From NCBI GenBank assembly GCA_001918745.1, contig MNGN01000045.1:1-42828 (forward strand): a DNA stretch of 42,828 nucleotides, in the 5' to 3' direction. The notes under the pieces were generated by a model. That model was not told where the DNA came from, did not search any database, and saw only the letters and a program-made list of their open reading frames with translations. This DNA is from Crenarchaeota archaeon 13_1_40CM_3_52_17. Its GTDB lineage: Archaea; Thermoproteota; Bathyarchaeia; 40CM-2-53-6. Positions 4,831 through 42,828 of the stretch are shown piece after piece; within the stretch, counting starts at the first letter, position 1; each line of letters begins with the position of its first letter. Both the position numbers and the translations under genes were made by a program.

Positions 4831-5352
4831 CTAGGCGGGAACTTGTATTCCCATTCCTCCATATTTCGGATAGAGATATTTGGCTGCGGGAATTCCTTGA
4901 ATCGTTTCCACTTCTGCCCACCGAAGTCCTTCCCTCCTCAGGTCTGAGAGAGTTTTGTGAAGGAGAAGAGAACCGAACCCTCGCTTTCGATAGCCAGGCG
5001 AGACGACTACTCCAGTAAAGAAGCGACCTTTTCCTGAGTTCCGCTCGGAAATTATCCCATTGATCCCAACAATCTTCTCATTGATCTCAACGACCAGCAT
5101 TTTCGCGCCCAGTCGTTTCTTCGAGTCTAGAAACCACCTTCCTGCGCTAGTCGGTGTCCATTTTTTCAGATAGTTCATCCATGGAGACCCTTCTTCTTGG
5201 CCAAGACCTTCATACCATAATTCTGCCACCGAACCGATTTCGCTCTCTGATGCTAACCTGATGCGTACTTCTGTGGTTTTGCTTGGATCAGGACAGTCAA
5301 ACTTGGAGAGGTCCCATCTGAACACGCAATAGAACGGGCCGAACGGAGACAT
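4831..5352 (-). CDS. GNAT-family N-acetyltransferase (173 aa)
   Basis: The acetyl-CoA-binding motif A is visible as VVVSPGYRKRGFGSLLLHKT (R/Q-x-x-G-x-G/A). It is preceded by the strand pair KMLVVEINEKIVGINGIISE and followed by the C-terminal AAKYLYPKYGGMG element (the usual 'Y-x-k-x-G-F' site). GNAT enzymes transfer acetyl from acetyl-CoA to amines of small molecules or proteins, and the substrate cannot be told here. The ATG start at 5352 lies 3 nt beyond the stop of the HAD phosphatase gene, so the two are almost certainly one operon. The protein ends soon after the last motif, which is short but complete for the fold. Confidence 0.85.
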   Translation of the reverse strand: MSPFGPFYCVFRWDLSKFDCPDPSKTTEVRIRLASESEIGSVAELWYEGLGQEEGSPWMNYLKKWTPTSAGRWFLDSKKRLGAKMLVVEINEKIVGINGIISERNSGKGRFFTGVVVSPGYRKRGFGSLLLHKTLSDLRREGLRWAEVETIQGIPAAKYLYPKYGGMGIQVPA

Positions 5353-5355
5353 TTC

Positions 5356-6033
5356 CTACTCGCTCTCTACTTGCGAAAAATTCCGTTCAGACATCCTACT
5401 TTGAAGGAAAATGATCACTTCTTTGAAATCGATAATCGTAGTCGCCTGAATTTCCTGTTCTCTGCAGAGCTGAGCAAGCTTAGAGTTCCTTATCGCGAAT
5501 CTCAAATCTGCGTTTCTCAGAGCATGCAGATCCCATCGTCCGTCGCCAATATAGGCAACCGTGTCAGCCTTTGTCTTGTAGTATCTAACAGTGTCGTCTT
5601 TGAGGCTGATCGATCGGTTGTCCTTCAGTTTTGGAAAGTCGAATTTGATACCTGTCGGCGTGCATTTCGCTGCTGCCGCGTACAGTTTCACGTTGTTCCA
5701 CCACGTCTTACGTCTTAGAAAATGTTTGATGACGAAATCCAGGCCTGCACTGACGAGTACTAGTGGGTAGTGATTTGTCTTGCAGTAGGCGACTAGATTG
5801 TCGAAGCCTGGCCTGAATCTGGTGACCCCGTCAAGTTCGTCCAAAATTTGGGATTTTGATGCCCTTACCATCGCGCCCTGTCTTCTGAGGCATTCCTCGA
5901 GCGTGATCTCCCCCTTGACGTACTGATCATCCACAGCCCTCCAATCGCCCTGAGCGAATTTTTCGGCAACGTTCTGGAAGGTGTCGTTGAGAGTAACCGT
6001 GCCATCAAAGTCGGTTAGTACTGCAAGCTTCAT
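5356..6033 (-). CDS. HAD-superfamily phosphatase, MtnX/phosphoserine phosphatase-like (225 aa)
   Basis: All four HAD motifs are present: motif I DFDGTVT (Asp8, Asp10), motif II VLVSAG, a Lys in FPKLKDNRS or the following segment for motif III, and motif IV YIGDGRWDLHAL. The arrangement, with a helical cap just after motif I (FQNVAEKFAQGDWRAVDDQY, GEITLEECLRRQ) and RFRPGFDNLVAYC before motif II, is that of the MtnX group. Those enzymes dephosphorylate 2-hydroxy-3-keto-5-methylthiopentenyl-1-phosphate in methionine salvage; related enzymes act on phosphoserine. It leads the HAD-GNAT pair and is divergent from a nucleoside phosphorylase gene, which would fit nucleoside/methylthio salvage. The exact substrate is inference. 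Confidence 0.85.
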   Translation of the reverse strand: MKLAVLTDFDGTVTLNDTFQNVAEKFAQGDWRAVDDQYVKGEITLEECLRRQGAMVRASKSQILDELDGVTRFRPGFDNLVAYCKTNHYPLVLVSAGLDFVIKHFLRRKTWWNNVKLYAAAAKCTPTGIKFDFPKLKDNRSISLKDDTVRYYKTKADTVAYIGDGRWDLHALRNADLRFAIRNSKLAQLCREQEIQATTIIDFKEVIIFLQSRMSERNFSQVESE

Positions 6034-6216: not shown

Positions 6217-6978
6217 ATGAGCGAACGTTTCACCGCAGAGATGGCCGTAGCGTTCCAAGCTTCTCGGCACGGAGTCTCTGTCGAACAGGTGGGTATAGCT
6301 CCGTTAGTGGTTGGCTCTTGGGACCTTGAGACCGTCAAGTCTCTGGCTAAGACTGTGGGCGCTAATTCGTCGCCGTCTTGGTGGTGGGGGCCGCGGTTTC
6401 CATTGTACAATGGCCAGGTTGGCGACAGAAGGGTCTCTGTTGTTAGTCTCCCCTTGGGTGCACCCGCCACTATACTGGTTATGGAAGAGCTGATTGCTTG
6501 CGGCGTGCGGGCTTTCTTGGGGCTGGGGTTTGCCGGGAGTATTCAACCCGAAGCCCCAGTGGGAACCTGTTTCATTCCGACATCCTGCATCAGGGATGAG
6601 GGAACATCCCCGCATTATCTGGCGAGTGATGATGGGCTTCGTCCAGCGCAACGACTAGTCCGGGCACTAGAGAAGGCGCGCGTCAAGAAGGGCGTGGTGG
6701 CATATACAGGTCCTATCTGGACGACGGACGCGCCCTACAGAGAGATGGTGACGACGATCGAGAACTATCGATTGCGTGACGTGTTGGGAGTTGATATGGA
6801 GACTTCAGCGATGTATGCGTTGGGCACATATCGGAATGTCGAAGTCTGCAACTTCCTAGTCGTAAGCGATGAACTGTGGAGAGATTGGAGGCCAGCGTTC
6901 GGCCTACCCGAACTGAGAGAGGCTTTGAAACGAGCCGAAGAAGTTATCCTAGAAGCGATCACAACACTACGAAAATGA
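6217..6978 (+). CDS. Nucleoside phosphorylase (PNP/UDP family, 253 aa)
   Basis: The protein matches the hexameric PNP_UDP_1 family, which splits nucleosides with phosphate into base and ribose-1-phosphate. Key segments are FLGLGFAGSIQ (phosphate/ribose region), the trailing strand VSLPLGAPATILVMEEL, and the purine/ribose-binding GVDMETSAMYALG with the conserved Met-Glu-Thr. VVSDELWRDWRP near the end provides the Ser-Asp pair found in many of these enzymes. The length is normal. ATG 6217 is chosen because it directly precedes the conserved N-terminal region. The gene is divergent from the MtnX-like phosphatase, so a shared role in nucleoside or methylthioadenosine salvage is plausible. The specificity (uridine, inosine or MTA) cannot be read from the sequence. 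Confidence 0.88.
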   Translation: MSERFTAEMAVAFQASRHGVSVEQVGIAPLVVGSWDLETVKSLAKTVGANSSPSWWWGPRFPLYNGQVGDRRVSVVSLPLGAPATILVMEELIACGVRAFLGLGFAGSIQPEAPVGTCFIPTSCIRDEGTSPHYLASDDGLRPAQRLVRALEKARVKKGVVAYTGPIWTTDAPYREMVTTIENYRLRDVLGVDMETSAMYALGTYRNVEVCNFLVVSDELWRDWRPAFGLPELREALKRAEEVILEAITTLRK

Positions 6979-29985: not shown

Positions 29986-30003
29986 TCCAACGAGCTCAGA
30001 GTG

Positions 30004-32370
30004 TTATGCGGGAACCACGACTGGCTGTCCCGGTGGAGATTTTTTCCCGACAACTTCACGAATCACACCATTATCCATCTGAATTATAGTGTCCGCTTCT
30101 GCTTCAAGATCTCCGACATGGCTAATGAGAAAGATTTGTTTAAAGTTCTGTGACAGCTCTTGATGGAGCAGGGCGAGAATTCCTTCCCGTCGAACTCGGT
30201 CCGAGCTACCTAGAGGCTCGTCGAGGAAAAGGAATTCAGGATTGTGGCCCTTGGCTTGAGGTATCAATGCGAGGGCAAAGGCTAGTCGCATTGCCAGTAA
30301 AAGCTGGTCTTCAGTGCCTCCTGAGAAAACCTCCTTTGGCTTGAACTCTCCAGCCTCAGGATCAAAGACCCTGACAGTATAGTCCTCATCGAGTTGTACA
30401 GCTTTGTATTTTCCCGAGGTTATCACCGGGAGAATAAGTCCCATGTAGCGTTCGACTTGGGGCTTGACACGGTTCCGCAACGATTCTGACGTTTGCTCGA
30501 GTCCCTTGACAGAAAGCTTGACGACCGTACAATCCTTCTCTAGAAGCATCACCTTCTTCATCTGCGTCTGAACCTGGTCATCAAGACCCATGTTCTCCTC
30601 CAGTAACTGGCGGAGCTCTAGCTGTCGTGAGATCGAGTCTTCGATCTGGGCCTTGTTTCTTGAAACGGATTCCTTTAGCGTATCCCTTGCTTCATCGGTC
30701 TCTTGAAGGAGCGTTTCGGCGAAGGTCATGCCTTCCGGGAGATCGGGAAGCTGGGCCGAGCCGAATTTCTTCTCGACCTGGTTGATCTCGCTTTGTATGT
30801 GGTCGAGCCGTTCTTTGATTTGGGGTTCGTCTCTCAATTGTTGGCCGAGCAATTTGGCCTTCGCTTCCAGAGATTGCAGTGATCGCCTATCGTTGTCGAA
30901 TAGCGTGGAAACAGTCTCGAAGACCATCCTCGGGTCTTTCATCTCTCCGAGCTTTGCAGAGTATCGCGAGATAGAGGCCAGTCTTCCCAGAAGATTTTCG
31001 GATCGTCCGGCAACGTCCTTCTGCATTGCGGTCAGGCTTAGCTGAGTCTCCGCAAGCTCGTTCTCCCATGAACGGATTAACTGCTGGCCGGCCATCTGTT
31101 CTTGCTCAAGTCTCGAGCTGCTAGCTTGTTGCGAGAGAGAGACAATCTGTCGGGACAATAGGAGGAGGGAGGCGATAGCTAAAGATCCGAAGGCAACTGC
31201 AACCTGGGGGAGTCCCAAGAAGAACGAAAGGATAGCTCCAGCGCCGAGGGCCGAGGTGGAGATGAAATATGTCCAGACCATTCTTGGCTTGGACTCGAAC
31301 GTCTTGGGGTTTCCAAGGCCCGGAGCTTCCTTTGTCTTCTCAGCAATTTTGGTCTGTAGAATATCTTTGGACTCCTCCAGCTGAACCCTGCGAATTTCCG
31401 CGGACTGATATTCTTCAAGCAGATTCGAGGCTTGGGTGAGCTGGGATTCTATTTCGGAAAGTCCAGAGAATTGGCTGATCTCTGATTGAGTTTTCTCCAG
31501 TTCTTCTCTCTGGGTAGAAATCCCTGCAAGTTGACGCTGGAGAGTTTCCGCTAGGCGCGACTTGTCCTGAATTTCTTGACGAAGGGATTGTTGAAGCTTC
31601 ACGGCGTCATCGTATTGTTTCAGGGTCTTGTGAAGGGAATCAATGGTAGCGAACTTTTGCTCCAAGTCTGCAAGTTCTTTCCTTAGCCTCTGAATCCGTT
31701 CAGCCATCGTTGAAAGCTGGGTCTCGGCCTCTCGGTATCTCTTCAACTGTTCCTGGAGCGATTGGAGACGCTCACATTCAACTGTGAGTTGGCCCGGATT
31801 TCTCGTCGTACCCTCAATGCGTGCCCGCTCAGCATCGAGCTGGTCCTGTACTCTGTTGAAGCTGTCGAGGTTCAGGAATACGTTGACAACTTTCCTTCGA
31901 TCATCTAGTCTCTGCTTGATTAGTCGCTCAAGATCTTTCTGTGCGACAACGCTACTTGCCACAATTTCATTGTAGGTGATGCCTCCTAGGAGTCGTTCGA
32001 TTTCACTCGTTGTGTCATTCACGGTCGTGGCTAGGGTTTTCTGCCGACCGTCGCCCCCAAGCTCATTGAGCTGTGCCCGGTTCGGTCTGGTCTTGTGAAC
32101 CTCTCTTAAGACTCGGTATCTGAGGTCGCCGATGGCGAACTCGAGTCTTACTTGAGCTTCGCCGGTTCCGTAGCTGAGGATTTCTTCGTTGCTGGGTTTC
32201 TGGCTGGGACGAATCATGCGACCGAAGAGGGCGAAGAGGATCGCGTCGAGGATGGTGGATTTTCCGCTCTCGTTCAATCCTGTGATTAGGGAGATGCCTT
32301 CTGAGAAGGGTAGCGGCTGGGAGAATTTGAGCTTCTTGAAGTTGTGAGCATAGAGGCTAAGAAGTTTCAG
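30004..32370 (-). CDS. Rad50/SbcC-like ATPase with transmembrane hairpin at the coiled-coil apex (788 aa)
   Basis: An SMC-type head ATPase split by two long coiled coils. Walker A is GLNESGKST (31-39), the signature is FSGGTEDQL (~682-690), Walker B is FLFLDEP (~713-719), and the D and H loops are GSSD and LISHVGD. Coiled coil 1 runs ~200-350 and coil 2 ~410-630. There is no CxxC zinc hook in the protein. At the apex (~364-406) sit two hydrophobic helices, TYFISTSALGAGAILSFFLG and VAVAFGSLAIASLLLL. This recalls the bacterial YhaN type rather than canonical Rad50. No ATG/GTG/TTG precedes Walker A. CTG 32370, overlapping the Mre11-like stop as CTGA and preceded by GGAGGAGGG, gives LKLLSLYAHNFKKLKF, a natural N-terminus. 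Confidence 0.88.
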   Translation of the reverse strand: MKLLSLYAHNFKKLKFSQPLPFSEGISLITGLNESGKSTILDAILFALFGRMIRPSQKPSNEEILSYGTGEAQVRLEFAIGDLRYRVLREVHKTRPNRAQLNELGGDGRQKTLATTVNDTTSEIERLLGGITYNEIVASSVVAQKDLERLIKQRLDDRRKVVNVFLNLDSFNRVQDQLDAERARIEGTTRNPGQLTVECERLQSLQEQLKRYREAETQLSTMAERIQRLRKELADLEQKFATIDSLHKTLKQYDDAVKLQQSLRQEIQDKSRLAETLQRQLAGISTQREELEKTQSEISQFSGLSEIESQLTQASNLLEEYQSAEIRRVQLEESKDILQTKIAEKTKEAPGLGNPKTFESKPRMVWTYFISTSALGAGAILSFFLGLPQVAVAFGSLAIASLLLLSRQIVSLSQQASSSRLEQEQMAGQQLIRSWENELAETQLSLTAMQKDVAGRSENLLGRLASISRYSAKLGEMKDPRMVFETVSTLFDNDRRSLQSLEAKAKLLGQQLRDEPQIKERLDHIQSEINQVEKKFGSAQLPDLPEGMTFAETLLQETDEARDTLKESVSRNKAQIEDSISRQLELRQLLEENMGLDDQVQTQMKKVMLLEKDCTVVKLSVKGLEQTSESLRNRVKPQVERYMGLILPVITSGKYKAVQLDEDYTVRVFDPEAGEFKPKEVFSGGTEDQLLLAMRLAFALALIPQAKGHNPEFLFLDEPLGSSDRVRREGILALLHQELSQNFKQIFLISHVGDLEAEADTIIQMDNGVIREVVGKKSPPGQPVVVPA

Positions 32371-33518
32371 TCGACTCCCTCCTCCTGAAGCTTTGCAACC
32401 GTGAGCTTCCAGGCCTCTTGGACCAAAGGCTTCTCCTGGGCTCCTGCTTTTTCTAGTAGGTTCTGGAATGTCCGGTCTAGTTCTTGGAGCGGGGTGGTCT
32501 TTGGAAGCGATTCCAACGGGACCATCGTGAGAACATTCAGTTGTTCTTCGTCGAATTCGATGTGGAAGAACTTGTCCTGTGTATAGGTGTAGAGTGCGGA
32601 TCGCTTGTAGGTTGAGAGCTGATCCAGCGTGACCTTTCCCTCTACCCTTACGCGAAGTATCTTCTCGTCATCGATTCTCTTCTCTAAGGCTTCCTCTATT
32701 TGTCGGGTGAGGCTTCCCTCACCGGCTACGCGGAAGTCAAGGGTTTCCATGGGTCGAGCAGGGGTTGGATGGAACTCTTGCTGGACTATTCCCGTCTTGT
32801 CGAGTTCGAGCCAGAAGAAACCTTTCTTCTCACCCTCTTCGTTGAATGAGACTCGCTCGGTGCTTCCAGGATAGATCACTGGGGTTCCGTTGATCATTTT
32901 TCTTTGATGATTGTGTAGGTGGCCTGATGCAAAGAGTTGGAAGTTCCTCGGGATAGACGATTTCTGTATGTGAACTTCTTGGCCGAAGTAACCGTCGAAG
33001 CCTTCGATCGGATAATGTGTGAGGAATATGTTAACGTCTCCGTCTCGATTGATCTCTTGACCGGCAAGGGGATCTGCATCGGCTGGTAGGGATGGATTGA
33101 GGCTCATCCCTATCACGTTGACAGTTTCGCCTCCGAGGTTGAACTTCTTGCCCGTTGGATGTTGCTCCTGTAGGAAGTAGATATGTCCGGATCTTGCGTG
33201 GACTGCGAGAGGGGAGGCTCCTTGCTCTGCGCTGCGCGGAGTATCGTGGTGGCCGCTTACGAGAATGGTTTTGATGTTCTTCTCATGTAGACGCTTGAAC
33301 TGTTCTGCTACGAACGCTCTGGTGGGATTGCCGGGAAGAATACCATCGTAGAAGTCTCCACCGATTAGAAGGAGATCGGGCTTGTTCTCCAGGGCAAAGT
33401 TGACTAGGGTCTCGAAGCAACGCTGGAAGTCGCGCTTGCGTTCGAACCGTTTGGGTCCATACTGGACTGCTGATGGATCTAGGTGGTTGTCGGCCGTTAG
33501 GAGAATGTGAACTGTCAT
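32367..33518 (-). CDS. Mre11/SbcD-like nuclease (383 aa)
   Basis: A calcineurin-fold metallophosphoesterase of the Mre11/SbcD group, which cuts DNA ends with the help of its ATPase partner. Metal-ligand motifs are TADNHLD (Asp10, His12), GGDFYD (Asp55), SGHHD (~89-92), FLTHYP (His168) and SGHLHNH (His200, His202). In the fourth motif the usual Asn of GNHD/E is His (GHHD). After ~260 comes a capping-like region and a helical C-terminus that would contact the ATPase coiled coil. The ATG 33518 start lies ~50 nt from a TATA box shared with hyuA. Its TGA overlaps the CTG start of the Rad50-like gene. Confidence 0.9.
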   Translation of the reverse strand: MTVHILLTADNHLDPSAVQYGPKRFERKRDFQRCFETLVNFALENKPDLLLIGGDFYDGILPGNPTRAFVAEQFKRLHEKNIKTILVSGHHDTPRSAEQGASPLAVHARSGHIYFLQEQHPTGKKFNLGGETVNVIGMSLNPSLPADADPLAGQEINRDGDVNIFLTHYPIEGFDGYFGQEVHIQKSSIPRNFQLFASGHLHNHQRKMINGTPVIYPGSTERVSFNEEGEKKGFFWLELDKTGIVQQEFHPTPARPMETLDFRVAGEGSLTRQIEEALEKRIDDEKILRVRVEGKVTLDQLSTYKRSALYTYTQDKFFHIEFDEEQLNVLTMVPLESLPKTTPLQELDRTFQNLLEKAGAQEKPLVQEAWKLTVAKLQEEGVD

Positions 33519-33563
33519 AGTCTAGCTACCGACGTCAACCGGAATGCATCCGGGCGAACTGGA

Positions 33564-33572
33564 ACGATATTA
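33564..33572. promoter_or_regulatory. TATA-like element between the Mre11-like gene and hyuA
   Basis: GATATTAAG (plus), or CTTAATATC (minus), lies ~46 nt before the Mre11-like ATG and ~52 nt (first ATG) or ~85 nt (preferred ATG) before hyuA. It may drive both divergent genes. Confidence 0.4.
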
Positions 33573-33656
33573 AGAGTTGGAGATGGCCGAACGTGACCTG
33601 TCGAATCTTGGACACAGCAGGCGATGTGTAAGATCCCTCTGAAGGCGGGCAAGGAA

Positions 33657-35735
33657 ATGGTTGCAAAGAATGAGATCAGAGTGGGAATCGACATCGGTGG
33701 AACCTTTACGGATCTCGTTGCAGCAGACGGGAAGCACAGCCTCTGGAGGATCAAGGTCCTGACCACGCCAACGGATCCATCGATAGGAGCACTGGAGGCC
33801 GTTCGAAGATTGTTGGAGAAAGATGCTGTTGATCCTCGTCTTGTTAGGGTTGTTATTCACGCTACGACCCTCGCCTCAAACGCCCTTCTGACCGGAACTA
33901 TTCCCAAGACCGCTCTCGTCACAACCTCGGGCTTTCGAGACGTGCTGGAGATCGGGCGCCAGAACAGACCTGAACTCTACAATCTCCAGGTTGAGCGTCT
34001 GCCTCCCTTGGTCCCGAGACGATACAGGTTTGAGGTCCAGGAGAGGATCACGTATGATGGGAGGGTCCTGGAACCGCTTGACACGTCGCAGACAGTTCGG
34101 GTTGCAAGAAGGATACGGAGACTCGGGATTGAAACGATTGCGGTCTGCCTTCTCCACTCCTACACGAATCCGAAGCATGAGAAGAGGGTCGGGGAGATTT
34201 TCAGGAGAGAGTATCCAGGTGCGGGATTGTCTTTGTCTTCGGAGCTTCTTCCCGAGTTTCGAGAATATGAGAGAATGAGCACTACAGTCGTTAATGCATG
34301 TCTCCAGCCGTTATTTGCTGTCTACCTGAAAAAAATCGAAGATGGATTGGAGGAGCTCGGTGTTCGTGCGACTTTTTTTGTGATGCAATCGAATAGTGGA
34401 ACGGTGCTCTCTCACCAGGCCTCACTGGAACCCGCGCGGCTCATAGAGTCGGGGCCTGTTGCTGGTGCAGTCGCGTCGAAGTTCTACGCTGGAGGATCTG
34501 AAAGCATTGTCTCTCTTGATGTTGGCGGGACCACGTCGAAGGCTGGAGTGTGGTCTGGCCGCGGGTTCGAGGTGACCAATGAGTACGAGGTTGGCGGCCG
34601 TTTGCATGGAAGCAGACGAGTTGAAGGATCAGGATACCCTGTCAAGTTTCCAGTCGTGGATCTTGTCGAGGTTGGAATTGGTGGAGGTAGTATTGCTTGG
34701 GTCGATGATGCCCTTGTTCTGCATGTTGGGCCTCAGAGTGCTGGAGCGTCTCCGGGTCCCGCGTGCTATGGGAGAGGTGGAAAGTTGCCGACGCTAACGG
34801 ACGCATCTCTCGTACTCGGGCGTTTGAGTCCAAGCTTCCTGCTCGGAGGAGATCTGCCGTTGAAACCAGGGCTTGCGTACGCGGCCGTTGCTGAGCTTGT
34901 TGCAAAGCGGCTTCGAATGCAGGTGCTCGATGGAGCGGTCGGTGTTCTGAGAATCGCTGTGGCGAAGATTGTGGAGGCGTTGCGGGCGGCGACGGTGGAG
35001 AAAGGTCTTGATCCGCGTAAAATGACGCTCGTGGCGTTTGGGGGAGCAGGACCAATGTTCGCCTGCGAGGTTGCTGAACAACTGGAGATAGAGAAGATAG
35101 TTGTGCCTCCGGCCGCGGGATTGCTGTCGAGCCTGGGCCTTCTACTTGCAGAGCCACTTCACGATTCAGTCAGAACGGTTCTGAACGACGCGGAAAATGT
35201 GAATCCAAGAGAATTGGATAGTGCCTTTGGCAGGATGGAGGGGAGAGCTGTAGATCTCTTGCGTAAAGAGGGAGTGAAGCAGAGGAATGTCAAGTATCAG
35301 AGATTTCTGGAGATGCGGTATCAGGGTCAATCTTACGAATTACCGATTCCACTATTGGAGAGAATTGTTACTAGAGGCGCGGTTCGTTCTGCTGTTCGAG
35401 ACTTTCACCGGATACATCAAACGAAGTATGGATATTCTCAGCTGGGCAAGCTTGTTGAGATCGTGAACGTTCGCAGCAACTGTAGAGGAAAGGCAGGAAC
35501 GATTGCCAGAGTAATGGGTACGCTCGCACGAGAGGAAGGCCTGCCGAAAAGCCGGAGAGTCTGGTTCACGGATGGACACGGTATCGAATGTCAAGTCCTT
35601 CAGCGAGACACCTTGCGGCTTGGGATTAAGGGAAAGGGACCATGTGTGATTGAGGATTACGATTCGACCTTGGTCATTCCGCCCAGAGCAAGATACGTGA
35701 TTGATCGGAATCGCTCGACTCTCATTGCGATATGA
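33657..35735 (+). CDS. hyuA: Hydantoinase/oxoprolinase subunit A (692 aa)
   Basis: This is the ATP-binding subunit of the ATP-dependent N-methylhydantoinase/5-oxoprolinase/acetone carboxylase group. The actin-like ATPase motif 1 is VGIDIGGTFTDLVAADG; further signatures are HATTLASNALLTG, SLDVGGTTSKAGVW, and the metal-pocket stretch IGGGSIAWVD with SAGASPGPACYGRGG. LVAFGGAGPMFACEVAEQL closes the adenosine site. ATG 33657 is chosen because it precedes GIDIGGTFTD by 10 residues, as in relatives; ATG 33624 would add 11. The partner HyuB is not next to it but 2.7 kb downstream on the same strand. The substrate cannot be predicted. Confidence 0.9.
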   Translation: MVAKNEIRVGIDIGGTFTDLVAADGKHSLWRIKVLTTPTDPSIGALEAVRRLLEKDAVDPRLVRVVIHATTLASNALLTGTIPKTALVTTSGFRDVLEIGRQNRPELYNLQVERLPPLVPRRYRFEVQERITYDGRVLEPLDTSQTVRVARRIRRLGIETIAVCLLHSYTNPKHEKRVGEIFRREYPGAGLSLSSELLPEFREYERMSTTVVNACLQPLFAVYLKKIEDGLEELGVRATFFVMQSNSGTVLSHQASLEPARLIESGPVAGAVASKFYAGGSESIVSLDVGGTTSKAGVWSGRGFEVTNEYEVGGRLHGSRRVEGSGYPVKFPVVDLVEVGIGGGSIAWVDDALVLHVGPQSAGASPGPACYGRGGKLPTLTDASLVLGRLSPSFLLGGDLPLKPGLAYAAVAELVAKRLRMQVLDGAVGVLRIAVAKIVEALRAATVEKGLDPRKMTLVAFGGAGPMFACEVAEQLEIEKIVVPPAAGLLSSLGLLLAEPLHDSVRTVLNDAENVNPRELDSAFGRMEGRAVDLLRKEGVKQRNVKYQRFLEMRYQGQSYELPIPLLERIVTRGAVRSAVRDFHRIHQTKYGYSQLGKLVEIVNVRSNCRGKAGTIARVMGTLAREEGLPKSRRVWFTDGHGIECQVLQRDTLRLGIKGKGPCVIEDYDSTLVIPPRARYVIDRNRSTLIAI

Positions 35736-35835
35736 GATTCAGATGAAGAAGGCTGTTACCGGAATCTCATGGCTCGGGTTTCAACAGGGCAATATCGGAT
35801 AGTATCGGGTATGTTGCTCTAACAGTGAAGAAAAT

Positions 35836-36327
35836 ATGACCAATACATCAAGCGGCTCGAACAGCACGTGGGGAGCGTTTACTCCTGTCATGCCTGCGTT
35901 CATACGGTTGGTCGCGGGCGTCATTGTACTAGTGATCATCGAGGCGGTTGTGCTCGGCTTTCCAGGGATCGGCCAGCCAATCTCAGGCAGCACCATATCG
36001 ATCGCGAACATTGCTGTATTCATGATCGGGCTTGTCGTGGCTCTGATCGTCTTCAAGTTCGGAACACAGCTCTCGAAGGCGGTCTCGGACGCGTACAAGA
36101 GCTACCAGAACTGGGTTCCATTGCTAGCATACGTCTTCCAGATCATTGCTATCGTCATACTCTACTATGTGAGCAACGGCATCGCCAGCCAGTACTTTAC
36201 CAGTGCACCGTGGGCTTATCCGTTGATATTCCTCTTGATCGCGCTGATCCCAACGTTGCGAGTGGTTGTCAATCTGGTGCACGCGCTCGAGGGCTCACCC
36301 TCCACGAAGCACTCTCAGAACAACTAG
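35836..36327 (+). CDS. Four-helix membrane protein of unknown function (163 aa)
   Basis: Four hydrophobic helices are visible: IRLVAGVIVLVIIEAVVLGF, IANIAVFMIGLVVALIVFKF, LLAYVFQIIAIVILYYVSNG and YPLIFLLIALIPTLRVVVNL. The N-terminus is Ser/Thr/Asn-rich, and a short cytosolic loop between helices 2 and 3 (GTQLSKAVSDAYKSYQNW) is polar. No family is recognised and no catalytic motif is seen. ATG 35836 is a clear start. It stands alone between hyuA and a hairpin/T-run terminator, and it is the last plus-strand gene before the repeated element. Confidence 0.7.
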   Translation: MTNTSSGSNSTWGAFTPVMPAFIRLVAGVIVLVIIEAVVLGFPGIGQPISGSTISIANIAVFMIGLVVALIVFKFGTQLSKAVSDAYKSYQNWVPLLAYVFQIIAIVILYYVSNGIASQYFTSAPWAYPLIFLLIALIPTLRVVVNLVHALEGSPSTKHSQNN

Positions 36328-36355
36328 ACGCTAGACGAGCCGACAACAAACCGCG

Positions 36356-36394
36356 GAGCCTTCTGGGCTCTAGAGACTAATCCCCGCTTTTTTT
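36356..36394 (+). terminator. Hairpin and T7 tract after the membrane protein gene
   Basis: GAGCC (36356-36360) pairs with GGCTC (36366-36370) around TTCTG, and a run of seven T occurs at 36388-36394 within CCCCGCTTTTTTTCGGG. It is positioned to stop transcription from the 35836 gene. Confidence 0.5.
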
Positions 36395-36472
36395 CGGGAC
36401 TCCTAGAATTACCTGTTTTTTGGTTTCTCACGCTAGTAGACGGTAAGAATGAGAGGTTCGCGTTCGGAGAAA

Positions 36473-36693
36473 CCACTCTTGTGTCGCGAGGTGCTCTGTG
36501 CAATGCCCCCCTTTTTTCTAGGGAAAATTTCCTGTCTGGTATGGATTATGGGCTAGTCTTGCGATTTAGGGCATGTTCCGGGCTTGGATGAAAAGGGAGG
36601 AAGACCGGAAATCTAGGCCGGTTCCCGAACGATTCTAGGGCGCGTTATGTCGCTTGTCCCAGATTCGAGATAAGGGTTGAAAATGGGCGATTT
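36473..36693 (+). repeat. Dispersed ~220-nt intergenic element, copy 2
   Basis: The plus strand here matches the minus strand of 23151-23376 over its whole length, with an overall identity that by eye is about three quarters. The best block is 36660-36693 (33 of 34 identical). The T-run/A-run hairpin is kept (TTTTC around TAGG then GAAAA, near 36511-36530), as is a GGAAATCTAG core, which in this copy is flanked by ACCGG/CCGGT arms. It lies between two convergent genes, ending 21 nt from the stop of the alpha/alpha-repeat protein gene. Conserved blocks with diverged linkers fit a structured RNA or an old mobile remnant. Confidence 0.8.
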
Positions 36694-36714
36694 CAATAAT
36701 TTCTGTTTTCTACT

Positions 36715-37866
36715 CTAATAGGTAGAGAGAGTTGCCGTGATTCCGGAAACCGGAGTTGGCCTCGCCACTGGCCTCCTCATCAAGACGTAGAGAGCCACGG
36801 CCACCACAACCGCCACAACCCCTACCAGAATAATGACCCCAACGAAAACGAGTGGAGAGAGAAACGGACTGAACAAGGGACCCGCCTGAACCTGCTGCAA
36901 TGCGACCGTAACCCAGCCCGTATCAAGAGTGCTCAGATGTGAACCCCGAACAGCGTCAAGAAAACTGCCATCCGAGTGTTGCTGGGTCAGGACAAAGGCA
37001 ATTGAAGAGAGTGCTTGAACAGACCGACCGTAGGCATGAAACGCCAACGCTGACAGAGCCGCCCCGTAAACATGGCCCTTGTGATCGTCTGTGCTCGTGA
37101 AGTTCTTGGATATCGTACTGGCTAGAAAGTCCAAGGCTTTCGATACGTGATTGTCGTTTGTCGTATAATTCGCAGCTTTCAGCGCTAAGAGCGCCAGTCC
37201 AGTCACGCTAATCTGCTCAGGTCCGAAGGCATCAGTAGCACTCTGTGAGATTGTGCTCGTTAGATTGAAGCTTCCGTTAGTGTTCTGAAGTGACAAGAGA
37301 TAGTTGAGCGCAAACGTCCTGTTTTCATGTGAGATCGGAGAGCGGGCCTCGGATATGCCCCAGAGCGCCATCGCAGTATCGACGCTCGTAGCGACCTGTG
37401 CATAGCTACCGTCCGGTGACTGGGCATAGTATCCAATGAAACCACTACTCTTTTGCTGGTATGCCCCAAGCTCCGACGAAACAGATGCGAAATTGTGAAG
37501 CAGCCCAACATTGTTCGACGCGTCCAAGACGGAAAGCATCACTCCCGGAGTGTCGGCTTCACTCCACGCATAGCTGGAGGAATCGTCAAGTTGCGAGGCG
37601 ACCCAATTCAAAGATTCTGTGGCTTGGAGTGACTGCGAATTGTTCAACCAAAGTGCAAGCGCCGCGCCAGGAGTTGGAATTTGAGGAAAGTCTTCGAAGG
37701 ACCCGTCCGCTTTCTCGTTAGTAGACAGCCAGCTCAAAGCGGATTTTGCGGCGGAATTCTGAGATGTGGTACTAGCGTAGGCGTAGTGTGCTGACGAGAC
37801 CGAGCTAAGAGTGATCAGAAGGATGATCCAGATTGCGGTTTTGAGCGGGTATTTTGGAGCGGGCAA
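36715..37866 (-). CDS. Membrane-anchored extracellular alpha/alpha-repeat protein, proposed cobalamin-binding (383 aa)
   Basis: TTG 37866 starts a signal peptide (PLKTAIWIILLITLSSVSSA). The body is a series of prenyltransferase/terpene-cyclase-like helical pairs, each with a 'NGSF' type turn: ALSWLSTNEKADGSFEDFPQ, YYAQSPDGSYAQVATSVDTA, YLLSLQNTNGSFNLTS and VLTQQHSDGSFLDAVRGSHL. A single TM helix (FVGVIILVGVVAVVVAVALY) and a short cytosolic tail close it. The same alpha6/alpha6 fold forms the alpha-domain of intrinsic factor and transcobalamin. The cobalamin link here is inferred from the operator shared with the DUF4430-ECF operon. The frame is open 59 codons further upstream, but that part overlaps the HIT gene; the TATA box at 37890-37899 favours TTG 37866. 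Confidence 0.72.
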   Translation of the reverse strand: MPAPKYPLKTAIWIILLITLSSVSSAHYAYASTTSQNSAAKSALSWLSTNEKADGSFEDFPQIPTPGAALALWLNNSQSLQATESLNWVASQLDDSSSYAWSEADTPGVMLSVLDASNNVGLLHNFASVSSELGAYQQKSSGFIGYYAQSPDGSYAQVATSVDTAMALWGISEARSPISHENRTFALNYLLSLQNTNGSFNLTSTISQSATDAFGPEQISVTGLALLALKAANYTTNDNHVSKALDFLASTISKNFTSTDDHKGHVYGAALSALAFHAYGRSVQALSSIAFVLTQQHSDGSFLDAVRGSHLSTLDTGWVTVALQQVQAGPLFSPFLSPLVFVGVIILVGVVAVVVAVALYVLMRRPVARPTPVSGITATLSTY

Positions 37867-37877
37867 AGTTACCCGCT
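37858..37877 (-). promoter_or_regulatory. Proposed operator, copy 1
   Basis: AGCGGGCAAAGTTACCCGC (plus strand, from 37858) is an imperfect palindrome with arms GCGGG/CCCGC and inner AA/TT. The identical 19 nt occur at 41170. Here it spans the predicted transcription start and start codon of the alpha/alpha-repeat gene, about 13-20 nt downstream of its TATA box, a position suited to repression. Confidence 0.65.
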
Positions 37878-37889
37878 CTACGCTCCTGT

Positions 37890-37899
37890 ACCATATAAG
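37890..37899. promoter_or_regulatory. Bidirectional TATA box (HIT gene and alpha/alpha-repeat gene)
   Basis: CCATATAAGC (plus), or GCTTATATGG (minus), is a TATA box in both directions. Plus transcripts would start near 37921, before the ATG at 37937. Minus transcripts would start near 37868, right at TTG 37866. Confidence 0.55.
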
Positions 37900-37936
37900 C
37901 TCGATGCCGCCAAAACAAAAATCAGATTCTCCGCCC

Positions 37937-38373
37937 ATGAAGCCCTGCGTATTCTGCGAAATACTGAACTGCAAAGCTCCGGCGAATGTGGGGACCATGA
38001 GAACATGGCGTTGATGACTATAGCTCCAGTAAACCCGGGTCACGTTCTAGTCATTGCTAAGAAACACCTTCCTTCACTAGCGGGTATCGAGGAGAAAGTG
38101 GGCATGAATCTTTTCAAGATAACCCTGCGTGTAGCAGTCGCCATCCGCAAGTCAGGTTTGAGATCTGAAGGAATCAACCTCTTCCTGGCAGATGGAGAAC
38201 CTCAGCAAAAGATTCTTCATCTCCACATGCACGTAATTCCAAGATTCCAAGAGACAGTTTTCGGATACCAGCCGACCATGGCTCCAAACCCTCCCGCGAG
38301 GAATTTGACAAGACTGCGGAAAAAATACGCCTGGCATATCAACGGCTATGGAAGCCCAAGCGACATGGCGTGA
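37937..38373 (+). CDS. HIT-family nucleotide hydrolase/transferase, apparently frameshifted
   Basis: The N-terminal part in one frame (ATG 37937: MKPCVFCEILNCKAPANVG) carries the FCxI zinc-binding start of HIT proteins. The rest is in another frame (ENMALMTIAPVNPGHVLVIA, then KKHLPSLAGI and the catalytic histidine triad ILHLHMHVIPRF). The frames meet at the G4 run 37990-37993; a net change of one base is needed, and comparison with relatives (NVVYEDEN) suggests that up to seven bases may be missing. HIT proteins hydrolyse Ap4A or AMP-lysine/AMP-NH2-like compounds. A start at ATG 38005 would lose the first strands. It is either a real disruption or an assembly error. Confidence 0.78.
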
Positions 38374-38400
38374 AAGTCTAACTGCAGGTAAAAACCGGAA

Positions 38401-40020
38401 TTGCTTGACCCCGTTTCATTCGAGATTCTCAAGAACTCGCTCATCTCGATCGCAGAAGAGATGGGAGTCGTCCTCCGAAGATCCAGCTTCTCCCCAAACA
38501 TCAAGGAACGAAGAGACTTCTCCTGCGCACTCTTCACCGCGCAGGGACAGCTAGTAGCCCAGGCAGAGCACATACCCGTCCACCTCGGCGCAATGCCCTA
38601 CTCAGTGCAGGCCGTTCTGAAGGAATTCGGAAATGATCTTTCAGAAGGTGACGATGTCATCCTCAACGATCCCTACCGCGGTGGGACCCATCTTCCGGAC
38701 ATTACTATGGTCTCGCCGATCTTCTTCAAGGAACGTTTAGTCGGATTTGCAGCCAACCGCGCCCATCACTCCGATGTCGGAGGAGTTGCGCCCGGGAGCA
38801 TGTCGGCTCTCTCTAGAGATGTTAACCAGGAGGGAATCCGAATCCCGCCTATCAAACTCTGGTCAGCGGGTAAGCAGAACAGGCAACTCCTCGATTTCGT
38901 ATTGACCAATGTCAGAACGCCTGATGAGAGACTGGGAGATCTCAGAGCACAACGAGCCGCGAACCTTGTAGGCGTGAAACGACTGATCGAGCAGCTGAAA
39001 AAATCTAGCGTATCTACTGTTGAGTCCGGAATGAACCAACTGATCGATTATTCTGAGGAGTTGATGGTCAAGAAAATCCGTGAATTGCCTAGAAAGTCAT
39101 CCTCAGCGGTTGACTTTCTCGATGACGATGGCTTTGGCACAAGGGATATTCCTGTAAAAGTCAAAATCACTGTTGGTCGAGAATTCATAGCGTTCGATTT
39201 CTCTGGCTCTGCAAAGCAGGTTCAGGGACCCTTGAACGCCGTGTACAGCGTCACTCTCTCAGCCGTCTACTACGTGGTAAGATGTGTGACAGATCCTTCT
39301 ATTCCAGCAAACGCAGGCTGTTTCAAACCTATTCAGGTTAAAGCGCTATCTGGGACTATCGTCAACGCGGACCCGCCCGCGCCAGTGGCCGGTGGCAATG
39401 TGGAGACCTCGACACGGATTGTTGACGTGACCCTCAAGGCCTTCTCGCGTATTATTCCTGAGAGAGTCTGTGCAGCTTGCCAAGGAACGATGAACAACGT
39501 GACCATAGGGGGGGTCGACCCACGGACTGGAAAATATTTCACCTATTACGAGACCATCGCCGGTGGATTCGGCGCACGATACAACAGAGATGGCGTCGAC
39601 GGGATACACAGCCACATGACGAATACCCTGAACACGCCCGTTGAGGCTTTGGAAGCTGCGTATCCTTTGAGGGTGAGGAGATACGAGCTGATGCGGGGGT
39701 CCGGTGGACGAGGACGGTTTCGTGGAGGTCTGGGAATCAGGAGGGAGACAGAGGTGTTGGCGGAAGGATCAACTATCTCGCTGATGGGAGAGCGACAACG
39801 CCGTGGACCTTGGGGATTGTTCGGAGGAGACCCGGGATCTCCGGGCGAGTATGGAATTGTTCGAGAGAACAGGATCACCAGTTTGTCCTCAAAGACGACA
39901 TTCTCTGCGGATAGTGGTTACGTTCTGACTGTGACAACACCCGGTGGCGGTGGTTATGGACCGGCTAGTCGTAGGGCGAAAGAGAGGATGAGGCAAGATA
40001 GAGCTGACGGTAAAGCCTGA
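38401..40020 (+). CDS. hyuB: Hydantoinase/oxoprolinase subunit B (539 aa)
   Basis: The partner subunit of HyuA, providing the hydrolase part of the ATP-dependent hydantoinase/5-oxoprolinase family. Signature segments are ERRDFSCALFTAQGQLVAQA, EHIPVHLGAMPYSVQAVL, NDPYRGGTHLPDITMVSPIF, NRAHHSDVGGVAPGSMSA (metal-binding HHxD), GPLNAVYSVTLSAVYYVVRC and the end TTPGGGGYGPASRRA. The length is normal. The start is TTG 38401. The gene follows the HIT gene by 27 nt but is separated from hyuA by 2.7 kb, although HyuA and HyuB normally form adjacent genes. Its stop is 3 nt from the convergent DUF4430-like gene. Confidence 0.92.
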   Translation: MLDPVSFEILKNSLISIAEEMGVVLRRSSFSPNIKERRDFSCALFTAQGQLVAQAEHIPVHLGAMPYSVQAVLKEFGNDLSEGDDVILNDPYRGGTHLPDITMVSPIFFKERLVGFAANRAHHSDVGGVAPGSMSALSRDVNQEGIRIPPIKLWSAGKQNRQLLDFVLTNVRTPDERLGDLRAQRAANLVGVKRLIEQLKKSSVSTVESGMNQLIDYSEELMVKKIRELPRKSSSAVDFLDDDGFGTRDIPVKVKITVGREFIAFDFSGSAKQVQGPLNAVYSVTLSAVYYVVRCVTDPSIPANAGCFKPIQVKALSGTIVNADPPAPVAGGNVETSTRIVDVTLKAFSRIIPERVCAACQGTMNNVTIGGVDPRTGKYFTYYETIAGGFGARYNRDGVDGIHSHMTNTLNTPVEALEAAYPLRVRRYELMRGSGGRGRFRGGLGIRRETEVLAEGSTISLMGERQRRGPWGLFGGDPGSPGEYGIVRENRITSLSSKTTFSADSGYVLTVTTPGGGGYGPASRRAKERMRQDRADGKA

Positions 40021-40023
40021 ATC

Positions 40024-40542
40024 CTAACACGCGTTTACTTTCGCGGCTCCCTGTACAGGCGGGTTCCAGGCGGACGAGTCTTGCGAGTTTGTTGCTTGGT
40101 AGTACCAGGCGAGCGTGTGATAGGTGGTAAAGTGAATCGCGTCGACGCCAACGTTTGTCGCAAACCATGCCTTGGATTTTTGGCATACGGCCCACAGGCT
40201 CCAGAAGTTTTGGCCGTTGCTCTGGACTCCATTTATCCCTGTTACCAAGTGCTCAGATGTAGGAGGGCCGTAATACGTGGCCTGAACTTTTGAGATGGAC
40301 GCTGATAATTGATAGAAGTTCCAATCTGAGGGTACATCGGTCCTGTTGATCCATTGGCCTGTTCCGTTTCCATAGTTTATCAGGGTCTCGACAGTGATCG
40401 TTGATCCTTGGCATGGGTCTGGGCAAGCACTAGATTTCTGATAGTAATAGTAGGCGCCGGCCTGGAAGACAACGATTCCTGCACCGACTAGAAACAGGAC
40501 AGCGAAGAGCACCTTGTGTTCACCGACGATGTTGAGTCCCAA
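40024..40542 (-). CDS. Membrane-anchored DUF4430-like (transcobalamin C-domain-like) protein (172 aa)
   Basis: An N-terminal TM anchor (HKVLFAVLFLVGAGIVVFQA) is followed by an extracellular domain with TITVETLINYGNGTGQWINR, DVPSDWNFYQL, and the core HLVTGINGVQSNGQNFWSLW AVCQKSKAWFATNVGVDAIHF. It ends with YHTLAWYYQ. The 'INGV....G..WSLW.......W...vGvd......d.laW.y' pattern is that of the DUF4430 family, whose known member is the C-terminal beta-domain of intrinsic factor/transcobalamin. Four to five cysteines may make disulfides. It is the second gene of the ECF S-component operon (gap 11 nt). The cobalamin role is inferred from context and fold similarity. Confidence 0.72.
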   Translation of the reverse strand: MGLNIVGEHKVLFAVLFLVGAGIVVFQAGAYYYYQKSSACPDPCQGSTITVETLINYGNGTGQWINRTDVPSDWNFYQLSASISKVQATYYGPPTSEHLVTGINGVQSNGQNFWSLWAVCQKSKAWFATNVGVDAIHFTTYHTLAWYYQATNSQDSSAWNPPVQGAAKVNAC

Positions 40543-40553
40543 TCTATCTCACA

Positions 40554-41159
40554 TCATTGCGGAGTTCTGAGTCCCAGTCGTGTGGCCGCAACCACTACAG
40601 CAGGGGCAATTGTAGCAAAGAAAACGATGTTGCTAGCCTCATGCGCAACCGAAAACGGCGCTCCAACAATGTTTCCTACGAGAAGAGCTTGATACAGAGA
40701 ACTTGTCTCGAACAACCAACTCCCAAAGTTTGTGAGAATGTCGAAAGCAAACGTCGCTTGTAGACCCACCAAGGACAACACGATGCTGAACCGCCCATAA
40801 TCGCGACTTCCTCTCGTAAAACTTGAAACTGCGAAAGTGCCTCGTAGTGCAGCCCCCGCAATTGCAAAGAAACATTCTCCAATCATCACAAAGAGGAGTG
40901 TGATGGGGTCAGCAGGACCAAATGGGTTGACTAGCCCAAAGATGAAACGAGTCAGTAGCGCGACTCCAATTCCGGACCGAAAGCCAAAGAGAAACGCCGC
41001 AAGGAAAACCAAAGTGTCCATCACCTTAATGTTTTGAAGACCAGTCATTGCATAATCTGTTGCGAGACACAGAGCTGTGAAGACTGCGACAATCAAAACT
41101 TTGACGGAAGGCCTATCGAGCGCAGATGCCCCAGTGGTGGTCACAGCGGTGATTGTCAT
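40554..41159 (-). CDS. ECF transporter S component-like membrane protein (201 aa)
   Basis: Six hydrophobic segments fit a small-molecule-binding S component of an energy-coupling factor transporter. They begin with VLIVAVFTALCLATDYAM and include the typical conserved stretch NIKVMDTLVFLAAFLFGFRS, GIGVALLTRFIFGLVNPFGP and PITLLFVMIGECFFAIAGAA. S components capture a vitamin or metal and hand it to a shared ATPase/T-component module, which is not in this window. The neighbours (DUF4430-like protein downstream, BtuF-like divergent) point to cobalamin or a related corrinoid. ATG 41159 lies just downstream of the shared operator and TATA box. Confidence 0.78.
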   Translation of the reverse strand: MTITAVTTTGASALDRPSVKVLIVAVFTALCLATDYAMTGLQNIKVMDTLVFLAAFLFGFRSGIGVALLTRFIFGLVNPFGPADPITLLFVMIGECFFAIAGAALRGTFAVSSFTRGSRDYGRFSIVLSLVGLQATFAFDILTNFGSWLFETSSLYQALLVGNIVGAPFSVAHEASNIVFFATIAPAVVVAATRLGLRTPQ

Positions 41160-41169
41160 GATCCGAGAA

Positions 41170-41189
41170 AGCGGGCAAAGTTACCCGCC
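41170..41189 (-). promoter_or_regulatory. Proposed operator, copy 2
   Basis: AGCGGGCAAAGTTACCCGC (plus strand, 41170-41188) is identical to copy 1 at 37858. It lies between the TATA box (41191-41203) and the start codon of the ECF S-component gene, over its predicted transcription start. The divergent BtuF-like gene is on the other side of the same TATA box. Confidence 0.7.
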
Positions 41190-41190
41190 C

Positions 41191-41203
41191 GTTAAATATA
41201 TCC
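41191..41203. promoter_or_regulatory. Bidirectional TATA box (ECF operon and btuF-like gene)
   Basis: GTTAAATATATCC is AT-rich on both strands. Minus transcripts would begin around 41170, inside the operator. Plus transcripts would begin around 41225-41230, a few nucleotides before the btuF-like ATG at 41238. Confidence 0.55.
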
Positions 41204-41237
41204 TTTCGCCATACGGCAAGGAGCTTCAAGACGCAAG

Positions 41238-42161
41238 ATGAGGATCTGTTCTCTACTCCCCAGCGCCACCGAGATTGCATTCGCACTCGGACTCGGGACC
41301 CAAGTTGTCGCAGTGTCCCACGAATGCGATTATCCTCCCGAGGCTTCCAACCGGCCCGTTTTGACGAAGTCAGCGATTCACCGGAAGATCCATAGGAGCC
41401 TTGAGGTTGACCGGGAAGTTGAACAGCGCGGCGGCGACATCTACGAGATTGACGAAAAACTTCTCGAGAAGTTGAAGCCAGATCTCATTCTAACACAAGA
41501 ACTCTGCCATGTTTGCGCCGTTTCGTATACCAAGGTCAAGGAAGCGGCACGGATTTTGGATGCGGATACAAAAATCGTCTCACTCGAGCCCACGAATTTC
41601 GAAGAGATCGTCGACAACATTCTACTAATTGGCAGAATGACGAGCAGGTTGGGAGAAGCTGAGAAACTGGCTGCGCAAATGCTGCAGAGAAGAAACAGGG
41701 TTAGGGAGAAAACTCGGAGCCTGCAAGATAAACCGCAGGTCTTCTTCATGGAATGGCTCCAGCCTCCGTGGGCCGGTGGACACTGGATTCCCCAAATGGT
41801 TGATTACGCTGGAGGGGTCGACGGGCTTGGCCGTCTTGGCAAACCCTCTCACAGAATAGATTGGACCGAAGTTGTCAAGTACCAACCTGAGATTATCGTC
41901 CTCTCTCCCTGCGGATTTGACACAAACGAAGTCATGGAAGAAGCCCATGTACTGGCATCTTACGAAGGGTGGAAGAAGACCCCGGCATTCAAGTCCTCAA
42001 GAATATATGCGGTCAATGCATCCGCATATTTCAGCAGGTCAGGACCGAGAGTGGTGGACGGGCTTGAGATCTTAGCTCACATAATACACCCCGAGCTGTT
42101 CCCCGAGAACCCACATCCAGAAGCGGTAAGAACCGTTCCAAAAGAAATGATTAGAGCCTAA
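41238..42161 (+). CDS. BtuF-like cobalamin-binding protein (307 aa)
   Basis: The protein has the two-lobed periplasmic-binding (helical backbone) fold of the BtuF/FepB group. Key segments are RICSLLPSATEIAFALGLGT and VVAVSHECDYPPEASNRPVL in lobe 1, LKPDLILTQELCHVCAVSYT, and the cobalamin-type FFMEWLQPPWAGGHWIPQMV in lobe 2, then YQPEIIVLSPCGFDT. There is no signal peptide or lipobox, so it may act inside the cell. No BtuC/BtuD ABC partner is nearby. ATG 41238 is divergent from the ECF S component and shares its promoter region. A role in corrinoid handling is likely, with the exact step unknown. Confidence 0.82.
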   Translation: MRICSLLPSATEIAFALGLGTQVVAVSHECDYPPEASNRPVLTKSAIHRKIHRSLEVDREVEQRGGDIYEIDEKLLEKLKPDLILTQELCHVCAVSYTKVKEAARILDADTKIVSLEPTNFEEIVDNILLIGRMTSRLGEAEKLAAQMLQRRNRVREKTRSLQDKPQVFFMEWLQPPWAGGHWIPQMVDYAGGVDGLGRLGKPSHRIDWTEVVKYQPEIIVLSPCGFDTNEVMEEAHVLASYEGWKKTPAFKSSRIYAVNASAYFSRSGPRVVDGLEILAHIIHPELFPENPHPEAVRTVPKEMIRA

Positions 42162-42205
42162 CCAAGATAAGCTTACAAAACTGAAAGCCAGTCGGAATCA
42201 CACCC

Positions 42206-42828
42206 TTGCCCAAATTCACATTGAAGACCCAGAAGCTGAAAGCAGAAGATTTCCGTGAACTTCACCATGGAAAGCGGATACTGATCCTTCCGAACGGATG
42301 GGATGTTCCGAGCGCACGCTTGTTTGAGGATGCAGGATTCCCTGCAATAGCGACATCTAGCGCGGGCATGTTAGTCTCTCTGGGCTACCCTGACGGTGAA
42401 GTGATCGGTAGAGACGAATTTGTCTCGGCTGTCGGAAGAATTGCCAGGGTTCTATCCGTTCCACTCTCCGCTGACATTGTCGCCGGCTTTGGAAAGACGA
42501 CAAAAGAGGTTCTCATGACTGTAAAAGCTATCCTAAAGACCGGAGCTGTCGGAATAAACATCGAAGACTTCGCGCATGCCACTAAGAAACTCTTCCCTAT
42601 TGAGAGACAGATAGAGAATGTCAAGGCAATTAGAAAACTTGGCATGACTTCGGGAGTGCCGATCGTCATCAACGCGCGCACGGACGCGTTTAGATATGCT
42701 GAAGGAGACGACGATGTACGGTTCAAGGAAGCGATTCGTCGGGCGACTGCCTATAGAGATGCGGGAGCCGATTGCGTTTACCCGATGGGTCTTACAGACC
42801 CAGCTTCAATCGCAGCCTTCGTCTTGGC
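42206..42828 (+). CDS. Isocitrate lyase/PEP mutase family enzyme (3' end outside window)
   Basis: The frame is open from TTG 42206 to the right edge (207 codons seen). The (beta/alpha)8-barrel starts with RILILPNGWDVPSARLFEDA, AIATSSAGMLVSLGYPDGEV, the metal region VPLSADIVAGFGKT, GAVGINIEDFAH and the strand PIVINARTDAF. The SADIVAGFG site corresponds to the DADtGyG loop of PEP mutase/oxaloacetate decarboxylase/methylisocitrate lyase enzymes, with ED and NARTD as further ligands. Members cleave or form C-C or C-P bonds next to a carboxylate. It follows btuF by 44 nt; co-transcription is possible. The stop is not in the window. Confidence 0.88.
   Translation, partial: MPKFTLKTQKLKAEDFRELHHGKRILILPNGWDVPSARLFEDAGFPAIATSSAGMLVSLGYPDGEVIGRDEFVSAVGRIARVLSVPLSADIVAGFGKTTKEVLMTVKAILKTGAVGINIEDFAHATKKLFPIERQIENVKAIRKLGMTSGVPIVINARTDAFRYAEGDDDVRFKEAIRRATAYRDAGADCVYPMGLTDPASIAAFVL

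Follow-up and report, generated by a model that had tools for sequence, protein, structure and literature searches.

Background

The animal cobalamin carriers transcobalamin, intrinsic factor and haptocorrin each consist of one soluble chain, which pairs an alpha/alpha toroid with a beta domain and is taken up by receptors. Among prokaryotes, Burroughs et al. (2007) described bacterial fusions of a toroid with an SLBB domain in CbiO/CbiQ operons and predicted that they scavenge B12; the same account includes ArsR-SLBB regulators and a toroid-SLBB clade that is less frequent in euryarchaea (PMC1796856). In energy-coupling factor (ECF) transporters, substrate binding is attributed to the S component (PMC5997447, PMC7299338). 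One such S component, CbrT of the B12-specific ECF-CbrT transporter, uses a shared ECF module and is described in its structural account without extracellular binding partners (PMC5997447). Here we analyze a stretch of 42,828 nucleotides (the window) from the genome of Crenarchaeota archaeon 13_1_40CM_3_52_17, a member of the Bathyarchaeia. Three of its genes, which encode an ECF S component, an anchored DUF4430-like protein with the fold of the transcobalamin beta domain, and an anchored alpha/alpha toroid, probably constitute one corrinoid (B12-type) acquisition unit.

This locus resembles the prokaryotic toroid-SLBB systems as Burroughs et al. present them (PMC1796856) in its two domains, their location at the cell surface, the presence of ECF-type genes and the predicted scavenging of B12. 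It differs in that the Bathyarchaeia have separate anchored proteins, an S component as partner, an ECF module that is not linked to them, and a dedicated 18-bp element. With the animal carriers it shares the beta-domain fold and the pairing of a toroid with a beta domain, but the archaeal domains are split and membrane-anchored. The new aspect is this split, S-paired, co-regulated archaeal form – B12 scavenging by toroid-SLBB proteins was already predicted in 2007 (PMC1796856). No account of the split archaeal form was found among the open-access papers listed on DUF4430/SLBB, transcobalamin, intrinsic factor, archaeal ECF transporters and cobalamin in Bathyarchaeia, which does not prove that there is none.

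Three linked genes with a shared promoter element

The source genome (G000; 1.78 Mb, in an assembly that is 80% complete) was compared with 40 relatives, and 21 of the 41 genomes form the family of the window (f1). An initial annotation of the window had proposed a vitamin B12 capture system of four genes, and all four open reading frames (ORFs) were confirmed on their strands. Three are on the reverse strand: the toroid gene (36715–37866), the DUF4430-like gene (40024–40542) and the S-component gene (40554–41159). The fourth, a BtuF-like gene, is divergent.

The S gene was found in 20 of the 41 genomes, the DUF4430-like gene in 19 and the toroid gene in 17; within the family, the counts are 19, 19 and 17. 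In all 19 genomes that have them, the S and DUF4430-like genes are immediate neighbors on the same strand, no more than 171 bases apart. In 15 of 17 genomes the toroid gene is on the same contig, within 2.1 kb of the nearer of the two; in the remaining genomes, G010 and G012, a separate short contig carries it. Five genomes (G002, G008, G009, G011, G016) have the order S-DUF4430-toroid with no intervening gene, G018 has toroid-S-DUF4430 with nothing between, and in nine others a HyuB gene, with or without HIT, lies between the cluster genes. None of the three genes was found in G003 or G019, and G014 and G020, both with the S-DUF4430 pair, had no toroid match.

The same three genes share a promoter element of 18 bp. 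The window has two identical copies, both on the reverse strand, one in the toroid promoter (37859–37876) and one in the S-component promoter (41171–41188); each is a proposed operator. The element is GCGGGTAACTTTGCCCGC, a near palindrome of the form GCGGGyAA-nn-TTrCCCGC, and the copy in G020 is more symmetric. With up to three mismatches allowed, it occurs twice in the source genome, both times exactly; a reversed control pattern also occurs twice there, and shuffles had a mean of 0.03 matches within the window. In a scan of 38 genomes of the order with at most one mismatch, the element occurs at 34 places in 19 genomes and the reversed control at none. Of the 34 sites, 17 belong to S genes and the other 17 to toroid genes. 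The mean majority-base fraction inside the element is 0.987 at the S sites and 1.000 at the toroid sites, compared to 0.46–0.60 in the flanks. The two promoters of the window are unrelated outside it, with 15 of 60 bases identical upstream and 17 of 60 downstream. Where the toroid gene leads the S and DUF4430-like genes (G018, gap of 6 bases), there is one element before the toroid gene and none before S. In G014, the second copy is at the end of the contig, where a toroid gene would begin.

TATA-like words begin 9–13 bases ahead of the element at 16 of 17 S sites and 21–25 bases ahead of it at 16 of 17 toroid sites (L067 has a further word at −13). In the window these are TATATT (41195–41200) for the S gene and TTATAT (37893–37898) for the toroid gene, both on the reverse strand and both putative boxes called from a consensus match and spacing. 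Given this spacing, the element would cover the expected transcription start. The toroid reading frame is open to 38043. In 15 of 17 clustered toroid ORFs (the window and its relatives) the frame crosses a TTG inside the element, just before a signal-like segment, and the TTG at 37866 was therefore taken as the likely start. The two exceptions are L078, which has no element, and L071, which has 77 N bases near the start.

The three genes are encoded together, linked across the family and joined by a near-invariant promoter element. The core of the initial proposal, two intrinsic-factor domain types as separate proteins tied to an ECF S component, is largely borne out. The gene set recurs, with its element, in other archaea.

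The S component and the DUF4430-like protein

The S-component product has 201 residues and five or six hydrophobic segments (six are listed, two of them overlapping), which by hydropathy fits the size class of S components (180–200 residues, about six membrane helices). The window protein alone matches ECF_trnsprt at E 6e-4, under the cut-off; its homologues match in 19 of 19 cases, the best at 1.8e-6 (Pfam matches in this and the other homologue sets were counted at E≤1). An EcfA-EcfA'-EcfT module is present once in the assembly of the source genome, at G000:C47, where it includes the only CbiQ match; it is not linked to the S/DUF4430/toroid cluster. Judged by its sequence, the product of 40554–41159 is an ECF S component, as first annotated. 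Its best profile match in the PDB was 6fnp_A, from the structure of ECF-CbrT (PMC5997447), but at E 0.057 and a domain E of 2.9 this is near noise. The match is a lead to the ligand rather than proof.

The DUF4430-like product (172 residues) has a single N-terminal anchor by hydropathy. It has no Pfam or NCBIfam match itself, and PF14478 has no match in the source genome. Among its homologues, 7 of 19 match PF14478 (best E 1.4e-4), and the profile of the family aligned to a profile of 14 DUF4430 proteins from other archaea with a probability of 98.2 and E 4.8e-14 (hhalign). An AlphaFold model from 19 sequences has a mean predicted local distance difference test (pLDDT) score of 80.1, with block means of 86–96 over residues 51–130. 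All 12 of the PDB matches to this model at E≤0.001 (Foldseek) are transcobalamin or intrinsic factor, and ranks 13–19 are more transcobalamin, haptocorrin and the DUF4430-type protein 3u7z. The template modeling (TM) score by target is 0.67 to the isolated transcobalamin beta domain (5no0) and 0.72 to 3u7z_A; to whole carriers it is only 0.20–0.23, because the match covers one domain of two. The fold search was decisive, as the profile had no useful match among PDB sequences (best E 0.16). The single-chain model confirms the predicted beta-grasp fold of the transcobalamin beta domain, and the DUF4430 identity of the product is confirmed indirectly, through homologues, profile comparison and fold. 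The initial description of a membrane-anchored DUF4430-like protein holds.

The toroid

The toroid product has 383 residues; by hydropathy, its N-terminus resembles a signal segment and its C-terminus carries a strong anchor. It matches TED_complement with 31.4 bits (cut-off 22), and SQHop and Prenyltrans more weakly, under the cut-off. Among 16 aligned members of the toroid family, all match TED_complement, 15 match Prenyltrans and 6 match PKD. The AlphaFold model is a helical barrel (pLDDT 80.8). Among the PDB matches listed for it, the closest folds are squalene-hopene and other terpene cyclases, alpha2-macroglobulin, AprG and glycosidases; a viral structure library had no match at E≤0.001. 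The membrane-anchored, extracellular alpha/alpha fold of the initial annotation is retained, while a specific likeness to intrinsic factor is not supported – neither transcobalamin nor intrinsic factor is among the best 50 of 56 PDB matches at E≤0.001, and the listed matches put the archaeal toroid nearer to terpene cyclases.

Related loci in other archaea

A scan of 84,980 genomes found 34 S loci, most of them on metagenome-assembled genomes labeled Bathyarchaeota or other archaea. With 18 loci of the window's type left out (L140–L154, L158–L160), 16 more distant loci remain. A DUF4430-like gene follows the S gene in nine of these, is elsewhere in the stretch in four, and is absent in three. 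One locus of the window's type, L145 (QHOM01000314.1), is labeled Verrucomicrobia; its S component is 59% identical to that of the window, with DUF4430-like ORFs beside it, and the contig is probably archaeal and misbinned.

Among 200 genomes of the phylum, 57 have PF14478, and 20 of these 57 were examined (L204–L223). In L204–L207, DUF4430 occurs with an ECF S component. In three of these loci, all from Bathyarchaeia (L204, L205, L207), toroid and DUF4430 form a single fusion protein, encoded next to the S component. L204 also encodes EcfT and a double ABC ATPase, and L206 encodes EcfT and an ATPase-ATPase-S fusion, a chain of 941 residues (2982–5807, reverse strand) with two ABC ATPase domains and an ECF S component, beside the EcfT and DUF4430 genes.

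In the other 16 loci (L208–L223), the gene adjoining DUF4430 is S-like in ten, an unnamed membrane protein of the 223-residue class in five, and neither in one. The S-like assignments were made by Pfam for L209, L214, L217 and L219–L223 (L223 only at E 0.004) and by BLAST clustering for L210 and L218. In L223, an S component of the window's family (profile E 3e-41) has as its partner a DUF4430 protein that passes the Pfam cut-off. The membrane-like protein, of about 220 residues, is directly upstream of DUF4430 in L211 (6286–6957, forward strand) and has relatives in L212, L213, L215 and L216; the one member scanned had no Pfam match. It is perhaps an unrecognised S component.

Probable corrinoid use and the likely ligand

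The source genome encodes a methylmalonyl-CoA mutase B12 domain (TIGR00640, E 1.9e-41). CbiG_C was found in none of the 41 genomes; CobS was found in seven, none of them in the family. FecCD matches at E<1e-70 in nine of the 41 genomes and in none of the family, and has no match in the source genome. With the proviso that the assemblies are incomplete, these matches suggest that the family uses B12, does not produce it through the CbiG/CobS pathway and has no clear BtuC.

Corrinoid genes are near several of the distant loci: CobA (L207), CobB (L163, L168), RACo and MtrH (L221, L222) and a corrinoid protein (L222). Within 5 kb there are eight such genes in 5 of 36 loci (322 kb), compared to one gene in 1 of 20 control stretches (272 kb); the count leaves out five further BtuF-like matches. 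These neighbors were dropped as statistical proof, since 5 of 36 against 1 of 20 is not significant and the test loci had themselves supplied the query proteins. A ribonucleotide reductase beside the S gene in L164 was considered as a B12 enzyme and rejected, its best score being for the class I alpha subunit. Literature on Bathyarchaeia with cobalamin and transporter held nothing relevant in titles and abstract openings. A corrinoid is the likeliest, putative ligand of the importer.

Proposed mechanism and alternatives

Everything beyond co-occurrence and the shared element is our inference. The toroid and the beta-domain protein would face outside and close on a corrinoid between them, like the two domains of transcobalamin. 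The captured corrinoid would be passed to the S component, which would dock on the EcfA-EcfA'-EcfT module for import, and the imported cofactor would serve methylmalonyl-CoA mutase. The element would act as operator for a repressor responsive to corrinoid status. The domains of human transcobalamin, made separately, are reported to co-elute and assemble when cobalamin is present but not otherwise (PMC5599065), so that a split arrangement is workable. We give a somewhat better than even chance to such an archaeal split transcobalamin, in which an extracellular corrinoid would be clamped between two separate anchored proteins and then delivered to an ECF S component.

Several results weigh on the other side. 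Besides the ranking of the toroid folds, Cobalamin_bind matches only 1 of 16 toroid members, at E 0.048. The likeness of the S component to CbrT is weak, and the excess of corrinoid genes near the loci is not significant. Of 13 family genomes searched for the B12-binding domain PF02310, only 8 had a match at E<1e-17, and there are weak partial FecCD matches in five family genomes, two of which (G002, G009) are over the cut-off. The incompleteness of the assemblies also limits the counts of absent genes.

The same three-part importer may serve another ligand – a different tetrapyrrole, a metal chelate or another vitamin – which we consider unlikely. DUF4430 is a broad family, and the deposited entry 3u7z is titled a putative metal-binding protein. 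Burroughs et al. pointed out that B12 synthesis is frequent among archaea with these proteins, which may be scavenging a different compound (PMC1796856), and the S components paired with DUF4430 elsewhere belong to several Pfam families (ECF-ribofla_trS, ECF_trnsprt, DUF6580). However, the family of the window has a B12-dependent mutase domain and no detected CbiG/CobS, and the top fold matches of its DUF4430-like protein are cobalamin carriers.

It is equally doubtful that the importer consists of the S component and the DUF4430 protein only, and that the co-regulated toroid has another job, such as an enzymatic one or the binding of surface polymers. Other archaea commonly have S-DUF4430 pairs with no recognised toroid, and G020 has the pair and the element with no toroid match. 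A nearest fold among terpene cyclases and alpha2-macroglobulin, and the PKD domains of some members, would also suit such a role. Against this, the shared element and synteny tie the toroid to the S-DUF4430 pair, and toroid and DUF4430 are fused in three related genomes.

The simplest reading of the element, from its position, is a putative repressor operator. Its non-palindromic centre and its orientation to the gene are constant at all 34 sites, a degree of conservation beyond what a plain palindromic operator would be expected to require. A less probable reading still is that it acts in the mRNA, as a hairpin over the start codon. As RNA it forms a 7-bp hairpin of −10.8 kcal/mol, better than 200 of 200 shuffles; the toroid start codon is inside it, and it has one orientation throughout. 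However, the TATA-like boxes stand closer to the element at S genes (about 9–13 bases) than at toroid genes (21–25 bases), so that the usual archaeal spacing from TATA box to start would place most of it upstream of the transcript at the S genes. No known RNA or riboswitch in Rfam matched 30000–42828 at the gathering threshold.

Two types of candidate regulator were seen near related loci. L207 encodes a protein of 163 residues (6479–6970, reverse strand) with an ArsR-type helix-turn-helix (HTH_5) and DUF4430 over the Pfam cut-off, between CobA and the fused toroid-DUF4430/S operon; it is a possible corrinoid-sensing regulator, and ArsR-SLBB proteins are described from Methanosarcina (PMC1796856). 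A DUF4443 protein with a winged-helix-like start is near the S gene in L166, L168, L169, L170, L171 and L173 (by Pfam in L168, L170 and L173, otherwise by clustering). Literature on archaeal cobalamin regulators had nothing relevant in titles and abstract openings.

A chance neighborhood of unrelated genes is scarcely credible: genes of other kinds (HyuA/HyuB, HIT, PEP-mutase) do stand among the cluster genes in the subclade of the window, but the set recurs in other genomes, nothing separates the three genes in six of them, and the shared element and synteny contradict it.

Neighboring genes

The BtuF-like gene (41238–42161, forward strand) encodes a protein with a Peripla_BP_2 match (E 5.8e-23) that begins at residue 5, and hydropathy found no signal peptide or anchor. 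The protein is probably cytosolic. Compared to BtuCDF, it has the BtuF-type Pfam domain, but no signal peptide, and the source genome has no FecCD match. The gene adjoins S in 11 genomes, all of one subclade, and among the more distant loci it is near S only in L164, L166 and L168. The initial annotation had counted this protein in the capture system, but a place at the surface is not supported; it is probably not part of the capture complex but a clade-specific neighbor.

HyuA/HyuB genes of the hydantoinase/oxoprolinase type (33624–35735 and 38401–40020) flank or interrupt the cluster in the window's subclade. Judged from synteny, the BtuF-like, PEP-mutase and Hyu genes look like insertions in this one subclade. 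An asparagine-synthase-like protein recurs near S in L162, L163, L166, L168 and L169 (one cluster, with Pfam matches for L163 and L166).

Implications

If the proposed mechanism is correct, soil archaea that apparently use B12 without producing it would possess a dedicated importer. ECF transporters could then have capture partners at the cell surface – here an importer would have its own extracellular capture proteins and one dedicated, near-invariant operator. The domain pair of intrinsic factor would exist in the Bathyarchaeia both split and fused, and the split form would be a living one of the intrinsic-factor/transcobalamin pair. The recurrence of S-DUF4430 pairs in other archaea makes the idea testable in many organisms.

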